Shown: piece after piece, positions 6,940 to 64,000 of the stretch
How the letters are laid out: every line of letters begins with the position of its first letter
Numbering within the stretch: position 1 is the first letter of the stretch
Assembly (NCBI RefSeq): GCF_001742305.1
Contig: NZ_MJAT01000001.1
Location: 310,001 to 374,000 of the forward strand
Source of the DNA: Desulfuribacillus stibiiarsenatis
Lineage (GTDB): Bacteria; Bacillota; Bacilli; Desulfuribacillales; Desulfuribacillaceae
Length of the DNA stretch: 64,000 bases
Direction of reading: 5' to 3'
Program-made: the position numbers and the translations under genes
Notes under the pieces: model-generated
What the model was told of the DNA's origin: nothing
Seen by the model: the letters and a program-made list of their open reading frames with translations, nothing else
The model's database searches: none

Positions 6940-7061
6940 TGAGTGTCCTTTCTCATCTCTCAAAGCAAAATCGCTTTGCAGGAATTGGCACCATAGTGAT
7001 TTACCATCACCGGTTGCCGGGTTTCATCGGGCCAGCCCCTCCACCTCTCTGGATAAGAGTA
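6940..7061 (-). promoter_or_regulatory. SAM-I (S-box) riboswitch controlling metNIQ
   Basis: On the minus strand the leader has the S-box hallmarks in order: CTCTTATCCAGAGAGGTGGA, then TGGCCCGATGAAACCCGGCA, then a variable helix and the closing GAGAGATGAGAAAGG. This is the four-way-junction aptamer that binds S-adenosylmethionine; binding favours the terminator just downstream. Confidence 0.97.
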
Positions 7062-11190: not shown

Positions 11191-11955
11191 ATGGATTATG
11201 AGGTGCAAGTCATCATCGCTGAAGATCATCCAGCCATACTAGAACATTTAGCATGTTTAGTCGAAAACTTCGAATCATTCAAAGTCGTTGCCACGGCAAT
11301 GAACGGAGAGGATTTTGTACAGCATGTCCGGCGTTTCTGTCCGGATGTCGTATTCGTCGACATTGACTTGCCGCTCATAAACGGGTTAGAAGCAGTAAAG
11401 CAAATACAACAAGAGGGTTTTACCCCGCTTGTTGTATTTTTCACTGCTCATTTAGACCATGCCCTTGATGCTTATCAGCTCTCCGCTGTGGATTATATTA
11501 CGAAACCAATTGATGAAGATAGGGTATATCGGACGTTAAATCGCTTATCCGACCAGATGAAGAAAGACCGCAGCTACATCTCTTCGATTCAAGAGGTTTT
11601 TCTTGATCCAGGACGAATCTATATAAAGGATGGCCATGGTGTTGTTTTTATTAAGCAGCAGGACATTCAATTCGTGACGAAGAAGGATAAGAAGTGTGTC
11701 ATTATAACAAAGGATAAAACTTTTGAAACCAATGAAAGCATGGGAGAGATTGAGCTTAAGCTAAATAAACGAATGTTTATCCGTTCGCATAAATCGTTTA
11801 TCATTAACTTAACGAAGGTACAACAAATTAGCCCTTGGGGAAAAGGGGCTTATGTGATAAACTTTGAAGGAACAACGGAAGAAGCGTATATCACCCGAGA
11901 TAAAGTCCATATGATTTACAAGATATTGAACATACCGTATAAAGAAGAACACTAA
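11191..11955 (+). CDS. agrA: AgrA/LytR-type response regulator with LytTR DNA-binding domain
   Basis: The protein has 254 residues. An N-terminal receiver domain holds the acidic pocket EDH, phospho-acceptor Asp57 (FVDID) and the conserved Lys in ITKP. The C-terminal ~100 residues are a LytTR domain (RSHKSFIINL). It starts 12 bases after agrD behind AAGGGGA and completes the agr circuit by activating target promoters. A hairpin terminator follows. Confidence 0.93.
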   Translation: MDYEVQVIIAEDHPAILEHLACLVENFESFKVVATAMNGEDFVQHVRRFCPDVVFVDIDLPLINGLEAVKQIQQEGFTPLVVFFTAHLDHALDAYQLSAVDYITKPIDEDRVYRTLNRLSDQMKKDRSYISSIQEVFLDPGRIYIKDGHGVVFIKQQDIQFVTKKDKKCVIITKDKTFETNESMGEIELKLNKRMFIRSHKSFIINLTKVQQISPWGKGAYVINFEGTTEEAYITRDKVHMIYKILNIPYKEEH

Positions 11956-11989
11956 TGGAAATCAAAATGGAAGTCGAAATCAAACCCAG

Positions 11990-12013
11990 AACCTCTTAGG
12001 AGGTTTTATTTAT
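11990..12013 (+). terminator. Terminator after agrA
   Basis: AACCTC and GAGGTT form a 6-bp stem around TTAG, followed by a T-rich tail. Confidence 0.7.
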
Positions 12014-12091: not shown

Positions 12092-13618
12092 ATGGAGAAA
12101 CAGGAGGATATCACAACCACCACTCATAAAATCAAGCGATTTGAACGAATACTTATACCTTTTGTAATATTTACAGGGGTATTAATTACGTATTGGATTA
12201 CTGATAACTTCTTATATGGGAACGAATGGAATGGCGAATGGAAGAAAGCACAAGGACTAGGAAACATAATCACACTTCATTATGAATCGGTTGAGCCACT
12301 ACAAACGGTTCAATTAATATCTAAGCATGAAATTACGGGAATTTTACAAGAACGAGATACTGACGTTGGTACGGTGTATTTGTTTTCCGATAGTACTACA
12401 GAAGAAGCAGAAATCGCGGTTGGCTTTGAGAATCACGGGGGAGAAACCTATCATCTTGGTTTTGTTGGAGATGTTCGTTCATTGGAATTAACTAGCATCA
12501 CGCAAATGAGTATGAATGGCTTAGAAATACTAAGAGTTTCAGGAGTCTATGGCGCAAATGCTCCTGTGACGCAGTATTATGCCATCGAGAAAGAAGTGCC
12601 ACTCCCATATCTAATTGTTGACACAGGTTATACCACTGAGGTTGATTTAGACGGGGATGGAGTGATAGAGATAATCGCTCAGCATGGAACGCCAACTACA
12701 ACTTCTCTATACCGTTACTATCAAGACAACTGGCAGGTAACGAATGTGAATCAAGCACTACAAGTATTATCTGTTCGATATGATGACACAAATAAAGAAT
12801 TTGAAGGATACCATGATAATCACAAGACAAAGCGATATCAATTTATCACTACTGTTTCCGAAGTTGGCAAGACTAACTCAGGACTTCAAGAGATTGTAGG
12901 AAAAGATATAAATGAAGCAGTAAAGCAGGCTATTTTGTCGCATAACTCCTTTTATAAAGAGGGGGAAGTAGCGACTGCGGGGCATGTCATTCTAGATACT
13001 CAGGAAATGCCTAATGGAGATACGGTTGTATATACTATTGCTAGTTTTGGAACCTTTGGTTTTGAAAATGGTATTTTCACGAAGATTAGTGGCACTGGTA
13101 GTATTCCTACAGTCATGATATTTTCTAAGCCTAAAGACGGCAACTATGTGTTCGAAGCTTATAAGGAACCTATGGATGGTTCGTATTACGTCGACTCCTT
13201 AAAGAAATTATTCCCGAAAAGATTGCACAAACAAGTATTAGCTTCACAAGAATCGTATCAAGAAGTGATTGAACAGCTAGAACAACAAGCGAAGGAGTAC
13301 TTGCAAACTATCGGACGCGAAGCAATTGTTCAAGCAAAGCATGTCGAGAAGAAGCTATCAACCATTCACGTAGAAGCTTCTAATAAGATTTTTGCAGAGC
13401 ATACCAAGTTCGACCAATTTCTTAATGACTGTCCGTATTGGATTGGAACGAGAGAGCGTGTTGAAAACGGTATCCGTTATATCTACAAAACAGAGCAAAC
13501 GCTAGATACGGAAGGCTTCGATGTAATAATTTTTTCAAAAACAGATGCGCACGGGAATATAATCGAGCGTAGGGAATATAAGATTGTAGGTCCAGAACCT
13601 ATAGTAGTAAAAAAATAG
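12092..13618 (+). CDS. Membrane-anchored protein resembling the extracellular part of BlaR1-type sensors
   Basis: This 508-residue protein starts at an ATG behind AAGAGGGGG. One hydrophobic segment at about 20-42 anchors a large extracellular part. Around residue 175-195 is a calcium-loop-like DLDGDGVIEI, as in VCBS/FG-GAP-like repeats. The segment YTIASFGTFGFENGIFTK and the later PMDGSYYVDSLKKLFP recall the C-terminal domain of Firmicute BlaR1/M56-family regulators. The peptidase and repressor parts are absent, so this looks like a stand-alone sensor or binding domain. The function is unknown and the family link is from memory. Confidence 0.55.
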   Translation: MEKQEDITTTTHKIKRFERILIPFVIFTGVLITYWITDNFLYGNEWNGEWKKAQGLGNIITLHYESVEPLQTVQLISKHEITGILQERDTDVGTVYLFSDSTTEEAEIAVGFENHGGETYHLGFVGDVRSLELTSITQMSMNGLEILRVSGVYGANAPVTQYYAIEKEVPLPYLIVDTGYTTEVDLDGDGVIEIIAQHGTPTTTSLYRYYQDNWQVTNVNQALQVLSVRYDDTNKEFEGYHDNHKTKRYQFITTVSEVGKTNSGLQEIVGKDINEAVKQAILSHNSFYKEGEVATAGHVILDTQEMPNGDTVVYTIASFGTFGFENGIFTKISGTGSIPTVMIFSKPKDGNYVFEAYKEPMDGSYYVDSLKKLFPKRLHKQVLASQESYQEVIEQLEQQAKEYLQTIGREAIVQAKHVEKKLSTIHVEASNKIFAEHTKFDQFLNDCPYWIGTRERVENGIRYIYKTEQTLDTEGFDVIIFSKTDAHGNIIERREYKIVGPEPIVVKK

Positions 13619-25869: not shown

Positions 25870-26134
25870 TAAGAATATGCAGCATTGCATTGCTATGAAG
25901 GAACTAAGTAAACTTAGAAAATCTACAAGGGAATAGGTGTCATTGACTGGAAGCACCTTAGACATTACTAAGTTGAAATTCACTCCTGAGCTAACGGCTG
26001 AAAGTAGTAGGCTGATCGTGCCGAGCGTTATATCGGATATTTGAGTGATTGCTATTGTTATAATAGCTATAACTCGGGTGGTACCGCGGAACCTATGTTT
26101 CGTCCCGAAATGGGATGTTTCATGGGTTTTTTTG
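25870..26134 (+). promoter_or_regulatory. T-box leader, probable Phe (UUC) specifier
   Basis: The T-box core GGGTGGTACCGCGG is at 26076-26089 and is followed by a terminator (26091-26134) ending in seven T. Stem I is visible: AACTTAG pairs with CTAAGTT, with AGTA on the 5' side and GAAATTCA on the 3' side. The specifier position reads TTC (25979-25981) followed by A, which is a Phe codon. Uncharged tRNA-Phe would then switch on the aromatic biosynthesis genes downstream. The specifier assignment is from hand folding. Confidence 0.9.
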
Positions 26135-56090: not shown

Positions 56091-56582
56091 ATGAGTTTCA
56101 TTCAGTCATTCCCGCCTTTACTATATGAGGATAGTCGAATATTGATCCTGGGCTCTATGCCCGGGGTTATTTCTCTTGAGGAAAATCAGTATTATGCGCA
56201 TCCAAGAAACCACTTCTGGCGGATTCTATATTCCCTACTTGATGAATCATTGGAACACGACTACGATGCGAGAAAGCGATTCTTACGGGAAAAAGGGATT
56301 GGATTGTGGGATGTGTTACATTCCTGTGTTCGAGAAGGAAGCCTAGATACTAGTATTCGCAATGAATCAGTGAATGACTTGCGTTCGATCTTAGGCACTC
56401 ATCCGAATATACGGGCAGTCTTCTTCAATGGTGCAAAAGCGGCCGAAACCTTCCGTAAAAAAGTCGGCTTTACTTTTGATAACATCGCGTTTATACAACT
56501 ACCATCGACTAGTCCAGCGTACACCATACCTTATGAAGAAAAGCTTGAGAAATGGAAAGTCATAAAGGAGTACCTATGCTAA
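56091..56582 (+). CDS. Hypoxanthine/uracil-DNA glycosylase (family 6, HDG-type)
   Basis: ATG 56091 after AAAGGTG gives 163 residues. LILGSMPGVISLEENQYYAH and PRNHFWRIL match the HDG branch of the uracil-DNA glycosylase superfamily, which removes hypoxanthine from DNA. LPSTSPAYTIPY is the second active-site motif. It overlaps the next gene at its stop codon. Confidence 0.9.
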   Translation: MSFIQSFPPLLYEDSRILILGSMPGVISLEENQYYAHPRNHFWRILYSLLDESLEHDYDARKRFLREKGIGLWDVLHSCVREGSLDTSIRNESVNDLRSILGTHPNIRAVFFNGAKAAETFRKKVGFTFDNIAFIQLPSTSPAYTIPYEEKLEKWKVIKEYLC

Positions 56583-56959
56583 AAAGAAACCGTATAATGT
56601 ATGCTACGTTCGTATGTATTGTCATTCTTTTAGGCCTTGCTTCTAGGGCGTTTCCTTTGGATTGGTGGGGTGACCAATATATAGGCGATGTACTATGGGC
56701 TCTGATGGTATTCTATTTATTCGCAACAGTTTTCCATAGAAAAGATACCTATTGGATTGCAGTAGTCGCTATAGGTTTTGCATTTGCCATTGAGATCAGT
56801 CAGTTGTATCAAGGGGACTGGATAAACTCCATTCGGTACACTAGAGTTGGTGGACTTATTTTAGGGTATGGATTTTTATGGTCGGATTTAGTTGCTTATA
56901 TTGTAGGGGTTTCCATCGGTGCTATTTCTGATCGATATTTATATAAAAGTGAGGGGTAA
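56576..56959 (+). CDS. DUF2809 membrane protein
   Basis: ATG 56576 after AAAGGAG gives 127 residues, overlapping the glycosylase stop. LASRAFPLDWWGDQYIGDVLWALMVF and EISQLYQGDW are typical of DUF2809, with four helices. Its function is unknown. Confidence 0.9.
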   Translation: MLKRNRIMYATFVCIVILLGLASRAFPLDWWGDQYIGDVLWALMVFYLFATVFHRKDTYWIAVVAIGFAFAIEISQLYQGDWINSIRYTRVGGLILGYGFLWSDLVAYIVGVSIGAISDRYLYKSEG

Positions 56960-56965
56960 TATTTG

Positions 56966-57445
56966 ATGGAACAAATTGAAGGTATGGATATACGCCCAGT
57001 TACTGATGAAGATTTGGATGAAGTATTGCACTTATTCTACCAAACGGTTCACACTATAAATGCTCAAGATTATCGGCAGGACCAGCTTGATACTTGGGCA
57101 CCGCAACATCCAGATAAGGAAAAATGGTTAACTTCGTTACGAAGCAACATTGCTTATGTTATCAAACAAGACAACAAGTTAGTTGGTTTTGCGGACTTAA
57201 ATCAGAGAAGATATATTGATAGATTATTCGTTCACAAAGATTACCAAAGGATGGGCATTGCAAGTTTACTGGTAACAACTCTTGAAGCTGAAGCTAAGAA
57301 ATTAAAGTACAATGAAGTAATGACAGAAGCTAGTATTACTGCTAGAGGTTTTTTTGAAAAAAAGGGGTATGATACCGTTCGAATGCAAGATAAAGAGTTA
57401 AGAGGTATGTTTTTTAGGAACTATATTATGAAAAAAGAATTATAA
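56966..57445 (+). CDS. GNAT family N-acetyltransferase
   Basis: ATG 56966 gives 159 residues; the ribosome site GAGGGG is about nine bases upstream. The acetyl-CoA motif is RLFVHKDYQRMGIASLLV, and MDIRPVTDEDLDEVLHLF is the typical N-terminus. The substrate is unknown. Confidence 0.9.
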   Translation: MEQIEGMDIRPVTDEDLDEVLHLFYQTVHTINAQDYRQDQLDTWAPQHPDKEKWLTSLRSNIAYVIKQDNKLVGFADLNQRRYIDRLFVHKDYQRMGIASLLVTTLEAEAKKLKYNEVMTEASITARGFFEKKGYDTVRMQDKELRGMFFRNYIMKKEL

Positions 57446-57526
57446 ACTACAACTTTTAAATATGATAGAATGGAATCGAAGGCAAATAATACCATGGTAA
57501 TTTATGGATTTTAAGGTGGTTTCCGT

Positions 57527-57784
57527 TTGAATAAGAAAAAACGAAGAATATTTGTGGTAATAATTTTAATGTGGTTAGTTTTTGCAGGTACAGATTTCAC
57601 ACTTGCGGCTTTGGATAAGTCGCCGATCTTTGCTCTCCCAATTGTTAAGTACAAAGATGGTGGTTCAGTTGAGTTTTATGGACTAGGGTACAAAGTAATT
57701 CGATATGTGAATTTATCTGTTGAAAGTGGCCCAGTGGTTGAAAAAGTGGAATTTGGCACTTGGTTCATGAAGTTTCAGCGATAA
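57527..57784 (+). CDS. Small membrane-anchored hypothetical protein
   Basis: A TTG start behind AAGGTGG gives 85 residues. An N-terminal helix (FVVIILMWLVFAGTDFTLA) is followed by a short extracellular beta-like part (GGSVEFYGLGYKVIRY), a pattern seen in small Bacillus membrane proteins. It is the last gene before the cassette array. Confidence 0.65.
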   Translation: MNKKKRRIFVVIILMWLVFAGTDFTLAALDKSPIFALPIVKYKDGGSVEFYGLGYKVIRYVNLSVESGPVVEKVEFGTWFMKFQR

Positions 57785-57796
57785 ATCTAGAATGTA

Positions 57797-57877
57797 TTTT
57801 CCCGAACCAAGGTTCGTCTAAGATCCAGCTTGTGCTATCTTTTACGAACCCCATGTTCGGAAAGGAAGTAGTTAGGC
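57797..57877 (+). other. attC-like recombination site A (start of the cassette array)
   Basis: Imperfect palindromic arms TTTTCCCGAACCAAGGTTCG (57797-57816) and CGAACCCCATGTTCGGAAA (57845-57863) flank TAAGATCC...ATCTT, the hairpin seen in the other sites. The core GTTAGGC (57871-57877) has the right-side consensus G^TTRRRY. A clear left core is not obvious, so this may also be a diverged site or an attI-like boundary. Confidence 0.6.
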
Positions 57878-57908
57878 GAAATCATTAGCTCGGCAATGGA
57901 GGAGTACT

Positions 57909-59015
57909 ATGGAAGATATTTTTGGGATGTTGTCATCGACATTAGATTTAAGGGATACTTATCGGCTCGGTCAAAAGGTTTCCTCAGAGAATTTACTTGA
58001 GAATAAGAAGAAAGTGAATCAGATTATTTCGCTAGCAAAGAAAAATGCTAAAAGTGATAAGTGTCTTTATTGTGGAGAGAAGGTCACGAGTTTCTGTAAT
58101 TCACATACTATACCTGCTTTTATTCTAGAAAATATATCAGTTGAAGGGAACTTGTATAACTTTAATAAGATGATTGGCTCACCTTTAATTAAAGATGAGG
58201 ATGGTATCAATAGGTCAGGAACTTTTTATGTTATCTGCAGAGATTGTGATAGTAAGGTGTTCGCAGAATACGAAAATCCAGATAAGTACTCTACTGATCC
58301 GAGCCATAAGATGCTAGCTCAGATAGCAATGAAAAATTTCTTGAAGAATATTTATAAAAGAAAGCTTGAATTTGAAATATATAAGATAGTTAATGAACAG
58401 ATGGGACTACCTTATGGTATGTTAGAGCATCAAAGTAATATTATTGAATTGGACTTGAATGAATTTACGAATGAGTATATACGAGCTAAGAAGTCAGCTG
58501 AGAAGAATAAGAGTGATGCGTATTATATGTTCTTTTGTGAACGCCTAGATTATGTTGTTCCTGTTGCCTTCCAAGGTCCGATTGCTATGTCAACTGACTT
58601 AGAGGGTGGAGTTATTAATAAGTTGTTCGATATGGATCCGAAATATAAGCTTCAGGAGCTGCATTTATGTATTTTCCCATTTAAGGAAGAAAGTCTTGTA
58701 TTTATGTTTATTGATAGTCGATCGAAGAGATATAGAAAATTTTATAAGCAGTTTAGAAAGCTTTCCTTGGAAGAACAGTTAAAGGTAGTTGTATATTTAA
58801 TTTTTGCGTATACAGAAGATTTCTTTATACATAAGGACTTAGATGATGAGATATTGCGTAATGAAGTATTACTTGAGATTAGCGGTAAATCGTCAATAGT
58901 TACGTCAATGATACCCTTTGTTGATGGAGATGAAGTTGTTCAACAATCTTATGATTTCAGTCAACTAAGTCAAGTTCCCAATATTTTTAGTAAAAGATAT
59001 GAAGTAGGTCGCTAA
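57909..59015 (+). CDS. Cassette gene: zinc-finger/HNH-like hypothetical protein
   Basis: This 368-residue protein starts behind GGAGGAG, 38 bases after the GTTAGGC core. The N-terminal third has CLYCGEK (Cys52, Cys55), FCNSH (Cys63, His66) and ICRDC (Cys110, Cys113), a metal-binding arrangement like HNH or other treble-clef folds, with SHTIPAFILEN. The remaining ~230 residues are helical, with no family recognised. It lies in the same array as the RT gene and is followed by attC-like site B, so it probably moves as one cassette. Confidence 0.6.
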   Translation: MEDIFGMLSSTLDLRDTYRLGQKVSSENLLENKKKVNQIISLAKKNAKSDKCLYCGEKVTSFCNSHTIPAFILENISVEGNLYNFNKMIGSPLIKDEDGINRSGTFYVICRDCDSKVFAEYENPDKYSTDPSHKMLAQIAMKNFLKNIYKRKLEFEIYKIVNEQMGLPYGMLEHQSNIIELDLNEFTNEYIRAKKSAEKNKSDAYYMFFCERLDYVVPVAFQGPIAMSTDLEGGVINKLFDMDPKYKLQELHLCIFPFKEESLVFMFIDSRSKRYRKFYKQFRKLSLEEQLKVVVYLIFAYTEDFFIHKDLDDEILRNEVLLEISGKSSIVTSMIPFVDGDEVVQQSYDFSQLSQVPNIFSKRYEVGR

Positions 59016-59022
59016 TGACTGT

Positions 59023-59150
59023 GCCTAACAATGCACTCTAGTTCGCTTTGCCTATTTTAGGTCATGCCTTCAAAGAAGCAAAGCACATTTCCAGCCCAAG
59101 ATAAGAGCTATCTAGGGCTGAGAAACGTCTTTAGTGCGGGGACGTTAGAG
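59023..59150 (+). other. attC-like site B
   Basis: The left core GCCTAAC (59023-59029) and right core GTTAGAG (59144-59150) bound 128 bases. The inner arms GCACT (59033) and AGTGC (59133) pair in the right order. The centre has several hairpins, including AAGATAAGAGCTATCT inside CAGCCC/GGGCTG. The site starts six bases after the zinc-finger gene and precedes the RT gene, as expected for a cassette junction. Confidence 0.8.
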
Positions 59151-59230
59151 GAAATGGCACTATTAGATTCATTAAATAGATTATTAGTATAATATAGCTT
59201 GCAAAGTGAGAAGCAGGGGTGTAATAGATT

Positions 59231-60799
59231 ATGGCATATAACCTGGATGATATCACCAAAGAGTTCATGTTTAAAGGATTATTCTCGGAATATTTACCGT
59301 CTAATTATAACTTAGATAGTAAAAACATTAATATATTTGAGGACGTTGAAATTTCTCAAAGCTCTGATTTTATAGACCCTTACAAATATTCAATGAGCCG
59401 ATTTATTGATAACGAAAAACGTAGAGTTATATATTTGCCAGAGTTAACTGCCTATTTATCAGTTGTAAAGTATATGAAAGAAAATAACATTATTAAAGAA
59501 CTTGTGGATTTTTCGATTAGCGGTAATAGCTCTTTTTCAAAATTAGTACAAGCCAATGGCAAATTATCCAAACATGAGATTTCTTATTTTGGTGATTATA
59601 TCGAAGATGTAGAAATGGATGATGAATTATTCGTTTCAACATATATTCCAAATGTAGTAGAAAAAATAAACAGAGCTAAAGGCGCAAAAGGTATCTTATA
59701 TTTAGATATATCAAATCATTATGCAAGCATATACACACATATATTACCATCTATTTTATTGGGATATGACGAGGCAATTACTCAATTTAAAATATTCTTA
59801 AGTAATAATCAGGATGAAAGAGTAACAAGTGATTACAAAAAATATAAAGATTTAGATGAGAAAGTAAGAGCACTTAATGCAGGAAGAACCAATGGTTTAC
59901 TAACAGGCACCTTAATTTCCCAGTTTATTGCAGAAGCTTTATTAACTCGTATAGATAAAGAGATTGAAAAAAGGAACATTAATTTTGTAAGGTATGCTGA
60001 TGATTATGAGGTTTTTATTTACGATGAAAATGAAATAGAGAAAATTTCAACTGAAATTAGTGACACTATAGCAAAGTACCACTTTACCTTTAATAACGAA
60101 AAATCAAGATATATCCAGTTTCCTTATTATGCGGTAAAGAATTTGGAGAAAATATACAACAGATACTTGCAGTCAAATGTTGACTCACCAGAAATTATAG
60201 AGCTTTTCAATACATATTTTAGTTTGGAGAAAGAAGGAACGAAGGGTGCAGTTAGGTACTTAATAAAATCAATTGATCAAAGGATAAAAATAAAAGACAA
60301 ACAACTTTATACCTCTTTTCTATTGAATGTTTTGGTTAACGACAATAGATCGTTAATAAAAGTATGTGAGCTAATTGTTAGGGAGAAAGAAAACTTGTGT
60401 TTTAAGGATGATCATATTGAGATTATAAAAAATTTGTTAAATCAATATATTGTCACAAAAAAAGAGTTGGAAGTAATTTGGTTATTATATCTATTGAAAA
60501 ATTTGGGAGTTAATGCCTTAGACGAAGATACAATGATGAAAGTTATACATAGTAATAATGAATTAGCGTTAGTTATGATTATCGATGAATATAAACTCAA
60601 CATAAATGATGAAATTAAAAAAGTATTAATCCAATCGGCAAAATCTTGGATACTACTATATCAGTTATTTCTAAGAGAGTATATAACAAAAGAAGAGTTC
60701 AAAGTAAAGTCGGGGATTAAAAAGAATATTGCGTTTTACTCTAGGTTAAAACACAAGCAGTTCACTCATTATAAAAGTATCAATATGGCTAATAAATAA
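59231..60799 (+). CDS. Cassette gene: Abi/DRT-like reverse transcriptase
   Basis: This 522-residue protein starts behind CAGGGGTG. Reverse-transcriptase motifs are in order: RRVIYLPELTAYLSV (about 64-78), YLDISNHYAS with Asp159, GLLTGTLISQFIAE (222-235) and RYADDYEVF with Asp257 and Asp258, followed by FNNEKSRYIQFPY. No maturase, thumb/X or endonuclease domain and no retron-type RNA is visible. The last ~220 residues are helical. This matches the AbiA/AbiK/UG class of defence RTs rather than retrons or group II introns. A cassette-internal -10 (TATAAT, 59188-59193) may drive it. Confidence 0.85.
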   Translation: MAYNLDDITKEFMFKGLFSEYLPSNYNLDSKNINIFEDVEISQSSDFIDPYKYSMSRFIDNEKRRVIYLPELTAYLSVVKYMKENNIIKELVDFSISGNSSFSKLVQANGKLSKHEISYFGDYIEDVEMDDELFVSTYIPNVVEKINRAKGAKGILYLDISNHYASIYTHILPSILLGYDEAITQFKIFLSNNQDERVTSDYKKYKDLDEKVRALNAGRTNGLLTGTLISQFIAEALLTRIDKEIEKRNINFVRYADDYEVFIYDENEIEKISTEISDTIAKYHFTFNNEKSRYIQFPYYAVKNLEKIYNRYLQSNVDSPEIIELFNTYFSLEKEGTKGAVRYLIKSIDQRIKIKDKQLYTSFLLNVLVNDNRSLIKVCELIVREKENLCFKDDHIEIIKNLLNQYIVTKKELEVIWLLYLLKNLGVNALDEDTMMKVIHSNNELALVMIIDEYKLNINDEIKKVLIQSAKSWILLYQLFLREYITKEEFKVKSGIKKNIAFYSRLKHKQFTHYKSINMANK

Positions 60800-60826
60800 T
60801 ATATTCAAATAATATTATGCCACACC

Positions 60827-61003
60827 CTCTAACAATGTGTATGCACTAGGGTACGGATGCAATTTTGATGCAAGAAGCTAAGCTAAGATGCCAAGCACGT
60901 AGCGACTGCCGCAACCGCATTTCTTCGCTGGGTGCAAAAGCACCGCAAAGAAGTATTTACTGTGGGTACAGCTCAGAAACGCCGCATACACGGAACGATA
61001 GGC
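60827..61003 (+). other. attC-like site C
   Basis: Left core CTCTAAC (60827-60833) and right core GATAGGC (60997-61003) bound 177 bases. Inner arms GTGTATGC (60837) and GCATACAC (60984) pair perfectly over 8 bases. A central hairpin TTCTTCGCTGGGTGC/GCACCGCAAAGAAG is present. The right core has A instead of the second T of the consensus. About 85 bases of it are closely similar to site G1 at 63578-63660. The remaining gap up to 61116 holds only the cassette leader described elsewhere. Confidence 0.78.
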
Positions 61004-61116
61004 GACAGACTCTGCGATTACCGCGCCTCCTGCGCGGATTAACAGAGCAATGATAGAATCGTATAAATTTAAGTATATGTTAAGATAACTTACTGCGCGA
61101 GGAGTTGTTAGCATTG

Positions 61117-61575
61117 ATGAGCGAAAAAGAGAGTTGGGTTATAGCAATATTACTAGCGGTTGCCACCTTAACGATTACAGATTTATCCCCAGTCTATTCA
61201 GAAGCGTTAACACTTTACTATATTAGAGTTGGTTTGCTACTTTTAGCTGCAATATTGGGCTATTTTATAATTAATAATGTTTACAGTTTGAAAAGTGAAA
61301 AATCGCAAATAGAGAGATGGAAAGGCTTTTGCAAACAAGGTTTAGCTATGAGTATTGGAAGAATAAGTATAGCAATATTTATTTTTTTAAACTTATTGAT
61401 TACTGGGGGTCAATATATTTTTTATGGTCAAAAGGTTTGGCTAACTATACTATCATTACAGTTAATAGATGTATTTGCGATAATTACTATACTAGGGGTA
61501 TTTAGTTTGTTAGCAAGTGTTGTAGTGTACTACGAAATGGAAAGAAAATATAAGAATATGGAAGAGCGCAATTAG
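61117..61575 (+). CDS. Cassette gene: small membrane protein
   Basis: ATG 61117 (TTG 61114 is close) follows GAGGAG and gives 152 residues. There are four hydrophobic segments (AILLAVATLTITDLS, IRVGLLLLAAILGYFI, AIFIFLNLLITGG, LIDVFAIITILGVF) and a charged tail. No family is recognised. It lies between attC-like sites C and D. Confidence 0.6.
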   Translation: MSEKESWVIAILLAVATLTITDLSPVYSEALTLYYIRVGLLLLAAILGYFIINNVYSLKSEKSQIERWKGFCKQGLAMSIGRISIAIFIFLNLLITGGQYIFYGQKVWLTILSLQLIDVFAIITILGVFSLLASVVVYYEMERKYKNMEERN

Positions 61576-61648
61576 AAGAAGGTTTTTTATGGAAGTTGTG
61601 TAAATTCGCAGCGTCCTCCTGCTTTTGGTATCGAAAGCAGAGACCGTC

Positions 61649-61700
61649 GCCTAACAAAGCACTCGCATAAGATAATAGTATGGTAATGCTCTATACGAAG
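61649..61700 (+). other. Truncated attC-like site D
   Basis: The left core GCCTAAC (61649-61655) is followed by AAAGCACTCGC and AAGATAATAGTAT, as in the left half of other sites. No right core or matching right arm is found before the next reading frame. This looks like the left half of a site fused to a deleted cassette. Confidence 0.5.
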
Positions 61701-61703
61701 TGA

Positions 61704-61997
61704 TGGCGCCCTACTTATGAAGATGCTAAAAAGAAATGGATTCAACGGGTAAAGGATTTAAGGGAACAAGGCGTTTATCTCGTTGAATACAATCAATTAC
61801 GAGTTGGTTTAGATGATACTTATCCAGTGGGAAAAGTAGATTTAGTCTTTATGGAAAACGGTGAAAAGAAAGTAAAAAAGGATGTTCAATTGTGGTTTGC
61901 TACAAGAAATGATAAGTGGAAGTTAGGAAATTTGGATTATCGTTACGATGATATTAAAGAAGAATGGGAAGATGCTTTAAGTGGGAATCTAAACTAA
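61704..61997 (+). pseudogene. Cassette gene fragment without a start codon
   Basis: An open frame of 97 codons runs from the TGA at 61701 to the TAA at 61995. It reads EDAKKKWIQRVKDLREQGVY and ends WEDALSGNLN. No ATG, GTG or TTG occurs early enough to start it. It looks like a soluble domain whose 5' end was lost together with the right half of attC-like site D. Not recognised. Confidence 0.6.
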
Positions 61998-62101
61998 CGG
62001 GTAGCGTTAGCTTAATACTTTTGGGGTCATTCTGCCCACATCCACTAGCTAAGATATGGTTATCTAAATCTAGCGGACGTTGCAGAAGCCAGACGTTATA
62101 T
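61992..62101 (+). other. attC-like site E
   Basis: Left core AACTAAC (61992-61998) overlaps the stop of the fragment gene. The right core is GTTATAT (62095-62101). The centre contains CTAGCTAAGATATGG then TTATCTAAATCTAG, matching the hairpin of sites B and F, with TTCTGC/GCAGAA further out. The inner arm near the left core pairs less well than in sites C and F. Confidence 0.65.
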
Positions 62102-62210
62102 GACAGTTCCGAAGACCACACTAGATAGAAATATGGGAGCAATTATCGATTTACAAATTTTGCAAAAGATTATATGCTATTAGTAATAAAAGATTTAAGG
62201 TGGTGTGGTC

Positions 62211-62381
62211 ATGTTAAAAGATGAAATAAAAAAGGCGATTGATGACATGCCAGAAGACTGTTCAATTGAGGATATCCAATATACTTTATATGTTCAAACG
62301 AAAGTAAGAAAAGGACTAAAAGACTTAGACGAAGGAAGATATGTGACACAGGACGAGATGGAACAGCGGTTTTCAAAATAG
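62211..62381 (+). CDS. Cassette gene: antitoxin of a RelE/ParE-type module
   Basis: The protein has 56 residues, starting behind TTAAGGTGG. It is charged and helical (MLKDEIKKAIDDMPED, VRKGLKDLDEGRYVTQDEM), matching small antitoxins paired with RelE/ParE toxins. It overlaps the toxin frame by four bases. No DNA-binding motif was seen. Confidence 0.75.
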   Translation: MLKDEIKKAIDDMPEDCSIEDIQYTLYVQTKVRKGLKDLDEGRYVTQDEMEQRFSK

Positions 62382-62686
62382 CTAAAGCAGTAGTATGGAC
62401 TAATACGGCAATGGATGATTTAGAGCAAATAGTAAGATATATTTATCGGGACTCACCTTCATATGCTGTATCGTTTTATGATACCGTAATTGATAAAGCA
62501 AAAACGTTAAAAGAGATGTCTAAACGAGGAAGAGTAGTCCCAGAACTGGGTGATGAGCATATACAAGAAATATCTGTTCATAAATATAGAATGATCTATC
62601 AGATATCTGAAACACGAGTAGAAATAATAACATTTACTCATGGCGCAAGAGAATTAAATAACTACTTTGAGATTAGCCCACGATGA
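62378..62686 (+). CDS. Cassette gene: RelE/ParE-type toxin
   Basis: The conserved toxin text runs from IAKAVVWTNTAMDDLEQIVRY through PELGDEHIQEISVHKYRMIY to FTHGARELNNYF. The family N-terminus (K-x-V-W-T) would be encoded just before the first ATG at 62411, but no canonical start lies there. An ATA at 62378 overlapping the antitoxin stop, or a -1 relation to the antitoxin frame, are options. Its targets would be mRNA at the ribosome (RelE) or gyrase (ParE). Confidence 0.82.
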   Translation: MAKAVVWTNTAMDDLEQIVRYIYRDSPSYAVSFYDTVIDKAKTLKEMSKRGRVVPELGDEHIQEISVHKYRMIYQISETRVEIITFTHGARELNNYFEISPR

Positions 62687-62723
62687 TAATTGTGGGATTT
62701 TTTTGTTTGCGGATATACCCGTC

Positions 62724-62919
62724 ATATAACAACGCATCACTACAAAGGTGCGGAAGCTATCGATGCATGAAGTGCTGCACCGTGGGTATAACATGTAGCA
62801 CCTGCCGCACCACATCCCTGAGCCTACCGAGTCGGCTTGCCGAGGATAAGATAAGAGTTATCTAACCCTCGGTCTTCGCCTGTAATGCTCAGTGACGTCT
62901 GTGATGCGAGACGTTAGGC
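62724..62919 (+). other. attC-like site F
   Basis: Left core ATATAAC (62724-62730) and right core GTTAGGC (62913-62919). Inner arms CGCATCAC (62733) and GTGATGCG (62901) pair perfectly. The centre contains AAGATAAGAGTTATCT, as in site B. Length is 196 bases, in the range of long chromosomal attC sites. The cassette leader after it (62920-63091) holds no gene but has a -10-like TAAAAT near 63056. Confidence 0.8.
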
Positions 62920-63091
62920 GAGACAGACTCTTCGATTACCGCACGTCCTGTGCTGATCTAAAAGATAGTATACATATATAATAATTTATAAGTAGCGGTA
63001 AAAGCGTATTAAACTAACGGGCAGTAATATTTAACTAGGTGATTGGGGTTTTATGGTAAAATGAAGGTGTTTAAGGGGAGTGGTTCAATAA

Positions 63092-63535
63092 ATGAATGAT
63101 ACTTTTGTGACAAAGGTTAAGAAATTTTTAGCTTTATTATTGATTGCAGGTGTTCTTACTGGTATCTCATATCTTATTGTTTACAAAGTTTCATTGTTAC
63201 CAAACGGTTATAATATTGTTCTAGTGAAAAACGATAGTATATCGTTGAAATCATTCAATATGGTAGGGATGGAAAAGAATATTATAGACGTAAATTTTTC
63301 AGAAAAAGATATTTGGAAGATTGGAGCCATAGAAGATGAAATAAAAAGACAAAAGGAATTTTTTTGGCTCTTCTTTTCTGCGGTTACTATATCTATATTT
63401 TTGTTAGTTTATAAGCTTCGTAAAAGAATGAAATTTTGGAAAGCAATTTTTGAAAGTAATATTATTATTTCTGTTTTGTTTCCAATAGTTCATATTAGTA
63501 GCTCGGTGAATAGGATAAGTAATTTAATTTCTTGA
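63092..63535 (+). CDS. Cassette gene: membrane protein
   Basis: This 147-residue protein starts behind AAGGGGAGTGG. Hydrophobic segments at about 11-30 and 90-108 flank a soluble loop (FNMVGMEKNIIDVNFSEKD). A third lies at 122-136. The family is not recognised. It sits between attC-like sites F and G1. Confidence 0.6.
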   Translation: MNDTFVTKVKKFLALLLIAGVLTGISYLIVYKVSLLPNGYNIVLVKNDSISLKSFNMVGMEKNIIDVNFSEKDIWKIGAIEDEIKRQKEFFWLFFSAVTISIFLLVYKLRKRMKFWKAIFESNIIISVLFPIVHISSSVNRISNLIS

Positions 63536-63541
63536 TTACTG

Positions 63542-63660
63542 AACAAACGGGTAGCATTAGTTCAATAGGCACCATATTTCTTCGCTCGGTGCGAAGCACC
63601 ACAAAGAAGGATTAATTGAAGGTACAGCTCAGAAACATCGATGATACCCGTCCGATAGGC
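63542..63660 (+). other. attC-like site G1
   Basis: Left core AACAAAC (63542-63548) and right core GATAGGC (63654-63660). Inner arms GGGTAGCAT (63549) and ATGATACCC (63641) pair at eight of nine positions. The centre TTCTTCGCTCGGTGC...CAAAGAAG is closely similar to site C, so the two share ancestry. Confidence 0.75.
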
Positions 63661-63690
63661 AGGACATCACTCGCTGCGCTCAAAAGTCCT

Positions 63691-63836
63691 GCCTATCGTG
63701 GCGCGGGCTTTACACCCGCTGATAGGCTGCTCGCGCAAAACGCTCGCAACGACGCCTATCAACGGCTTTTGCGGACATTCCTTTGTTGTGCACGCACAAC
63801 TTCGGTCACACTCGCAAATCCCGCGCCACGTTATAT
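63691..63836 (+). other. attC-like site G2 (tandem with G1)
   Basis: Left core GCCTATC (63691-63697) and right core GTTATAT (63830-63836). Arms GTGGCGCGGG and CCCGCGCCAC pair perfectly over 10 bases. Between G1 and G2 a perfect hairpin GATAGGCAGGAC/GTCCTGCCTATC spans 63654-63697. The segment is strikingly GC-rich in an AT-rich region and codes for nothing recognisable. Confidence 0.7.
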
Positions 63837-63884
63837 GCAATAGGGGCAATAAGATAGATTCAATAAAATAGGGGGATAACATTA

Positions 63885-64000
63885 GTGATAGAAATTCTTG
63901 AAGAGCCAATCGGAATAACATATAGATCATTAGTATCTTTGGCATTTGAAGTCTGTAATAACTTCACTTTGGTGAAAAGAGATCAATTGCCATTAAATCA
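63885..64000 (+). CDS. Cassette gene, partial, hypothetical
   Basis: A GTG at 63885 follows TAGGGGGAT and opens a frame to the window end (MIEILEEPIGITYRSLV...). Only 38 residues are visible; no family can be named. Its position after site G2 suggests that the array continues beyond the window. Confidence 0.5.
   Translation, partial: MIEILEEPIGITYRSLVSLAFEVCNNFTLVKRDQLPLN

Follow-up and report, generated by a model that had tools for sequence, protein, structure and literature searches.

The last part of the window, a stretch of 64,000 nucleotides from the genome of Desulfuribacillus stibiiarsenatis, carries an array of attC-type sites and accessory genes headed by an attI-like site. Judging from sequence comparisons, this is very probably what remains, without a recombinase, of a Bacilli integron-type system that is run by a non-canonical recombinase, the remnant being made up of an attI and five to six cassettes. 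We read positions 56500–64000 of the window together with the continuation on the same contig (C1).

Arm scans without composition weighting could not separate the window sites from shuffles, and for this reason a covariance model and a cassette closure test were adopted instead. The training set of the model (R1) comprised 38 attC sites taken from Bacilli genomes other than that of the window, which contributed no sequence to it. It matched the window exactly three times, at 59024–59149, 62725–62918 and 60828–61002, corresponding to sites B, F and C, all on the strand of the genes, and the next matches were at noise level (E > 4). The original prediction, which had read the region as an integron-type cassette array (or CALIN), is confirmed, and the condition under which covariance models would have refuted it, a score for none of the sites, does not apply. 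Elsewhere in the same genome, R1 detected arrays on two contigs, C36 and C38 (best E = 1e-19 on the latter), as well as a site on C6.

The array starts with the attI-like site A (57795–57874, + strand), which has its G^TT crossover at 57871/57872 and a fold z of −5.2. The complete attC sites, all on the + strand, are B (59022–59150; E = 1.8e-7, or 2.8e-8 with filters off; bottom-strand fold z −4.6), C (60826–61003; E = 1.5e-3, or 2.3e-4 with filters off) and F (62723–62919; E = 8.7e-5, or 1.3e-5 with filters off; fold z −4.0); the right core of C is GATA, not GTTA. Site D (61648–61735, +) consists of a left half only, with the R'' core GCCTAACAAAGCACTCGC present, R' absent and the right half lost, in agreement with the predicted absence of a right core, and R1 gave it no score in the window scan with filters off. 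Site E (62025–62101, +) is degenerate: it has a good right half (R' ACGTTATATGAC, crossover after the G at 62095), but the R'' core is missing, and it was matched weakly with filters off (E = 1.2; fold z −3.8). Paired cores had been predicted for B, C, E, F and two further sites, G1 and G2. This holds for B, C and F, whereas E lacks R'', G1 is just a short repeat, and G2, here called palindrome G, is a strong palindrome of another type. By DNA fold z, sites A, B, E, F and G folded better than shuffles, and C and D did not. The shared AAGATA..TATCT apical hairpin that had been noted in A, B, E and F is real, and it recurs in the attC of other genera.

Palindrome G (63648–63835, +; cores GATAGGC/GTTATATGC, ends ACGTTATATGC, DNA fold z −6.1) is attC-like and received no score from R1 with filters off. 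Palindromes of this type (GATAGGCAGGAC..GTCCTGCCTATC GTGGCGCGGG..CCCGCGCCACGTTATATGC) occur in arrays of both genomes of the family, at 63648–63835 in the window and at 11868–12010 in locus L179, 363–512 in L184 and ≈17283 in L015, and related copies are found on C36 and in the family relative G001. They may represent another type of attC or a mini-cassette that carries no gene. Two other kinds of small element were seen. A CTAACGGGTAGCGTTAG-like repeat is present in three copies near decayed sites in the window (61989, 63009 and 63539). In addition, the cassettes of both family members contain small hairpins in which the loop, GTCCT, is constant and the stem varies, placed immediately behind the crossover or immediately ahead of the attC. 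Thirteen were counted in four array loci of ≈27 kb in total (L023 at ≈5831, 6801, 7061 and 9243; L179 at ≈10808, 11068 and 11660; L181; and L184), compared to none in window positions 1–57000 and near zero in shuffles; degenerate versions lie at ≈61011–61030 and 62938–62955 in the window. These hairpins are possibly regulatory.

In an integron cassette, the R'' at the 3' end pairs with the first bases after the G^TT of the same cassette, the two being brought together when the cassette circularises. In every testable cassette of the window, the 5' end is the reverse complement of the 3' end, and this check, which was not part of the original prediction, is the strongest one. Beyond GTTA, this closure extends over 3, 4, 6 and 6 nt for A–B, B–C, C–D and E–F, respectively (P = 2.5e-5 for all four jointly), over 5, 6, 6, 5 and 0 nt on C38, and over 5, 0 and 0 nt on C36. 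Among Bacilli arrays, closure of at least 4 nt was found in 60% of neighbouring pairs, compared to 4.7% when pairs were drawn at random, 11% between both sides of a single site and 7% between next-but-one sites; in other phyla, the corresponding values were 76% for closure and 3% for the control. Terminators give no such complementarity between the upstream and downstream ends of a gene, which speaks against regarding the sites as structured repeats (terminators, REP-like elements or RNA motifs) scattered between unrelated genes of an ordinary genomic island. The intergenic palindromes, the decay of some sites and the presence of other repeats would agree with such an island, but Rfam yielded no attC-like match and no family fitting the window sites, the sites are biased to one strand, and their G^TT boundaries are exact. 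We find this explanation scarcely credible.

In the attC alignment, 94% of the cells were paired, with 160 double changes, compared to 45 in shuffled alignments and at most 26 when the partners were slid. This covariation supports an attC that would act as a folded strand, and the rarity of G–T pairs in the alignment would fit that strand being DNA. The 95-nt attC type folds into three hairpins on one closing stem.

The cassettes of the window all lie on the + strand. Cassette 1 (57872–59144) starts with GTTAGGC, ends with GCCTAAC and contains an ORF of 368 aa (57909–59015) for which there was no Pfam match. Cassette 2 (59145–60997) encodes a DRT-type defence reverse transcriptase, UG31 (ORF 59231–60799; PADLOC RT_UG31, E = 3.2e-135; Pfam RVT_1). 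Cassette 3 (60998–61655) encodes a membrane protein (61105–61575), and its 6-nt closure is with the left core of D. Cassette 5 (62096–62913) holds an ORF at 62205–62381 followed by a ParE toxin at 62411–62686 (Pfam ParE_toxin, E = 1.3e-12), and is probably a toxin-antitoxin pair, in which the first ORF, from its position, is the probable antitoxin. A decayed cassette 6 (62914–63647) begins at the F crossover and encodes a small membrane protein (63092–63535), and no matching R'' was found downstream. The cassette proteins of relatives (sample of n = 73) include acetyltransferases and proteins of the NUDIX, glyoxalase, phosphotransferase-like, HepT and kinase types, as well as matches to defence nucleases. 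Elsewhere in the window, a T-box leader (25886–26110, +) and a SAM riboswitch (6950–7059, −) were seen, both ordinary.

Site A had been taken for an attC without a clear left core. Instead, it aligns with the segment directly following the recombinase at two loci, the relic on C38 and the intact gene of G001, from which it follows that the window array starts at an attI that has lost its recombinase. C38 carries a tyrosine recombinase gene truncated at its 5' end, with an attI-like site and then cassettes behind it. In G001, the recombinase is intact (373 aa) and is followed by an attI and by cassettes encoding a lipoprotein, AbiGi/AbiGii and a NACHT protein; the next attC is interrupted by a group II intron. 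Group II introns were seen inside or right after attC at 11561–13454 in L023, together with a reverse transcriptase/maturase, and at 12827–13084 in L179. The AgcS symporter on the right flank of the window was not found in G001. No recombinase gene adjoins site A, no tyrosine recombinase is present on C1, consistent with the prediction that no integrase was in view, and a second copy was not found in the genome. The truncated gene, the decay of sites D and E and of the 3' part of the array, and the lack of a second copy all suggest a loss of activity in this genome. The arrays on C1, C36, C38 and C6 are probably decaying and no longer movable by their own enzyme.

The same layout of recombinase, attI and cassettes as in G001 was found in the Paenibacillus-like genomes (family f4, with the named relatives Paenibacillus and Saccharibacillus), with up to 14 attC on the strand of the recombinase and almost none on the opposite strand. 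In 11 copies of the attI from relatives, the last 11 nt up to the GTTA are identical, and beyond this point the pairwise identity drops to 0.35. Past G^TTA, each genome has a different first cassette. The attI in the Paenibacillus-like genomes is a long imperfect hairpin (for example L064 4070–4175, fold z −4.8); the canonical attI is not known to be such a long hairpin. Some cassettes are common to genomes in which they have different neighbourhoods, and the homology stops at the cassette borders. In related genomes, the genes differ exactly at G^TT, so that the second condition set for refuting the original prediction, a region kept fixed with no gain or loss of genes at these positions, does not apply either. 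In one case (L061 11268–12110 and the reverse strand of L067), the cassette bodies are 94% alike in two genera, while the attC sites are unlike; simple cassette transfer is insufficient to account for this pair, and the attC was presumably replaced by some route.

The distribution of the system was determined in 399 genomes of the class Bacilli, a sample chosen at class level because genus, family and order provided just two genomes. The attC type was present in 49 of the 399 genomes and the recombinase or a near relative in 25, with 23 having both. The attC was therefore found in 23 of 25 genomes with the recombinase, compared to 26 of 374 without it (Fisher p = 1e-21, a figure partly helped by selection, since the R1 training sites adjoin such recombinases). 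Both recombinase genomes without attC (G021 and G178) have an IS91-associated type of the enzyme. Conversely, in 12 Bacilli genomes with three or more attC matches, a recombinase of this kind was not detected at the cut-off applied. Three of these (G287, G331 and G367) have at least seven strong attC matches each and no recombinase at E < 1e-50; in these, the recombinase was lost or has diverged, or another enzyme is used. Such arrays are common in the Gram-positives of the class Bacilli. Similar recombinases, which also lack the IntI-specific domain, stand at the head of arrays in Bacteroidota (Flavobacterium enshiense, Chitinophaga and others), and the cassettes of these arrays close over 5–6 bases; no attC was found near the recombinases of Halonatronum and of some Bacteroidota.

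We considered whether the window could be a plain CALIN, in which attC cassettes of ordinary integrons had arrived by transfer without any local enzyme ever moving them, the recombinase family being unrelated. The window has no recombinase, a few CALINs have been reported in Firmicutes (PMC9024848), and XerCD or a distant IntI might be capable of acting on the attC. However, the window array is headed by an attI-like site that matches the segment after the recombinase in two loci, a canonical IntI was present in none of the 31 attC-bearing genomes tested, the attC family is shared among Bacilli, and the order recombinase-attI-attC is kept in many genomes, in line with the co-occurrence above. 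This makes a plain CALIN improbable, and the remnant of a system with its own recombinase remains the preferred reading.

The recombinase lacks the IntI-specific domain of ≈41 residues. In the phmmer alignment to the Vibrio integrase (2a3v), there is a gap where the IntI-specific part lies, and the distance from the K box to the LRH is 67–70 aa, compared to 109–110 aa in IntI. The curated integron-integrase model TIGR02249 gave a score of 218 bits, below its cut-off of 265 bits. A tree of 58 recombinases placed IntI in one clade (support 100/99) and the Bacillota recombinases in a separate one (98/94). Nevertheless, the predicted recombinase fold (mean pLDDT 80.6) was structurally closest to the integron integrase 2a3v. 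The original suggestion that the array might belong to a new lineage was right, though the non-canonical nature of the recombinase could not be seen from the window. The protein has an extra N-terminal region with weak similarity, below the cut-off, to HARP. The IntI-specific domain is a defining criterion of the integron integrase and is held necessary for activity (PMC9668308; PMC2426708). By this criterion the recombinase is not that of a canonical integron: the arrays would work like an integron, but by the domain rule they are not one.

The lack of the domain is shared with recombinases that neighbour IS91-type transposases, and the recombinase could conceivably be part of an IS91-type transposon that lies beside the arrays by chance. 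Shorter relatives (L069–L071) are indeed followed by an IS91-type transposase, and in L069 (genome G085) an attC array adjoins the IS91-type recombinase, on the other strand. The long recombinases, in contrast, are followed by attI and attC and by no transposase, and the IS91-associated group forms a clade of its own (100/99) in which two of the three genomes have no attC. A chance association of this kind is very unlikely. The closure and attI tests led us to discard the terminator, REP and IS91 readings alike.

In the integron-type system that we propose, a tyrosine recombinase of ≈370 aa, encoded just upstream of the attI and read in the same direction, would join the single-stranded, folded attC of circular cassettes to the attI at G^TT, presumably acting on the folded bottom strand. 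The local recombinase, which has no IntI-specific domain and stands apart from IntI, would be the enzyme that moves the cassettes, and arrays of defence, toxin-antitoxin, acetyltransferase and other accessory genes would be built in this way. We consider it likely, if less firmly so than the nature of the window itself, that the domain is not required for attC recombination; that an older and wider group of domain-less recombinases runs arrays in Bacillota and Bacteroidota, and probably in Nitrospirota; that canonical IntI is one later branch of it; and that surveys requiring the domain missed much of the diversity of integrons.

Whether integrons are missing from Firmicutes has been raised as a question (PMC2426708), and a survey listed one complete Firmicute integron and a few CALINs (PMC9024848). 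That these recombinases fail the protein criterion used would explain why standard searches missed the arrays. We found no description of such arrays in Bacilli or Bacteroidota in the literature searched, which had bioRxiv and most subscription journals outside it. On the sequence evidence, this is a new integron variant in Gram-positives. It makes accessible an extensive pool of mobile genes with accessory functions (defence, toxin-antitoxin and transferases) in these bacteria and provides a natural test of the purpose of a domain that is held necessary for activity.

Compared to known systems, the window resembles a CALIN in having several attC and no integrase nearby, and by membership it is one; it differs in having its own attI and in that the relic of a recombinase of matching type survives in the genome, on C38. 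The IS91-neighbour recombinases of L069–L071 belong to the same superfamily, but lack the extra N-terminal region. The survey (PMC9024848) names no complete Firmicute integron other than that of Limnochorda pilosa, known here by description, which had been identified by the criterion of a canonical IntI. The features of a canonical integron that are present here include attC cores with complementary L arms and a conserved fold, closure at G^TT, and an attI that adjoins the recombinase and has varied first cassettes, as seen in the 11 copies from relatives and on C38, and in the window for the attI without its recombinase. The closest counterpart is the sedentary chromosomal integron of Vibrio with IntIA (2a3v), which likewise has attC with R''/L''/L'/R' arms and a G^TT crossover, an attI next to the recombinase gene, and arrays of varied accessory genes, and whose integrase is the best match of the Bacilli recombinase in both fold and sequence. 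Unlike in Vibrio, the Bacilli enzyme has the extra N-terminal region in addition to lacking the IntI-specific domain, its gene points into the array, the attI itself is a long hairpin in the Paenibacillus-like genomes, and the 95-nt attC has three hairpins on a closing stem.
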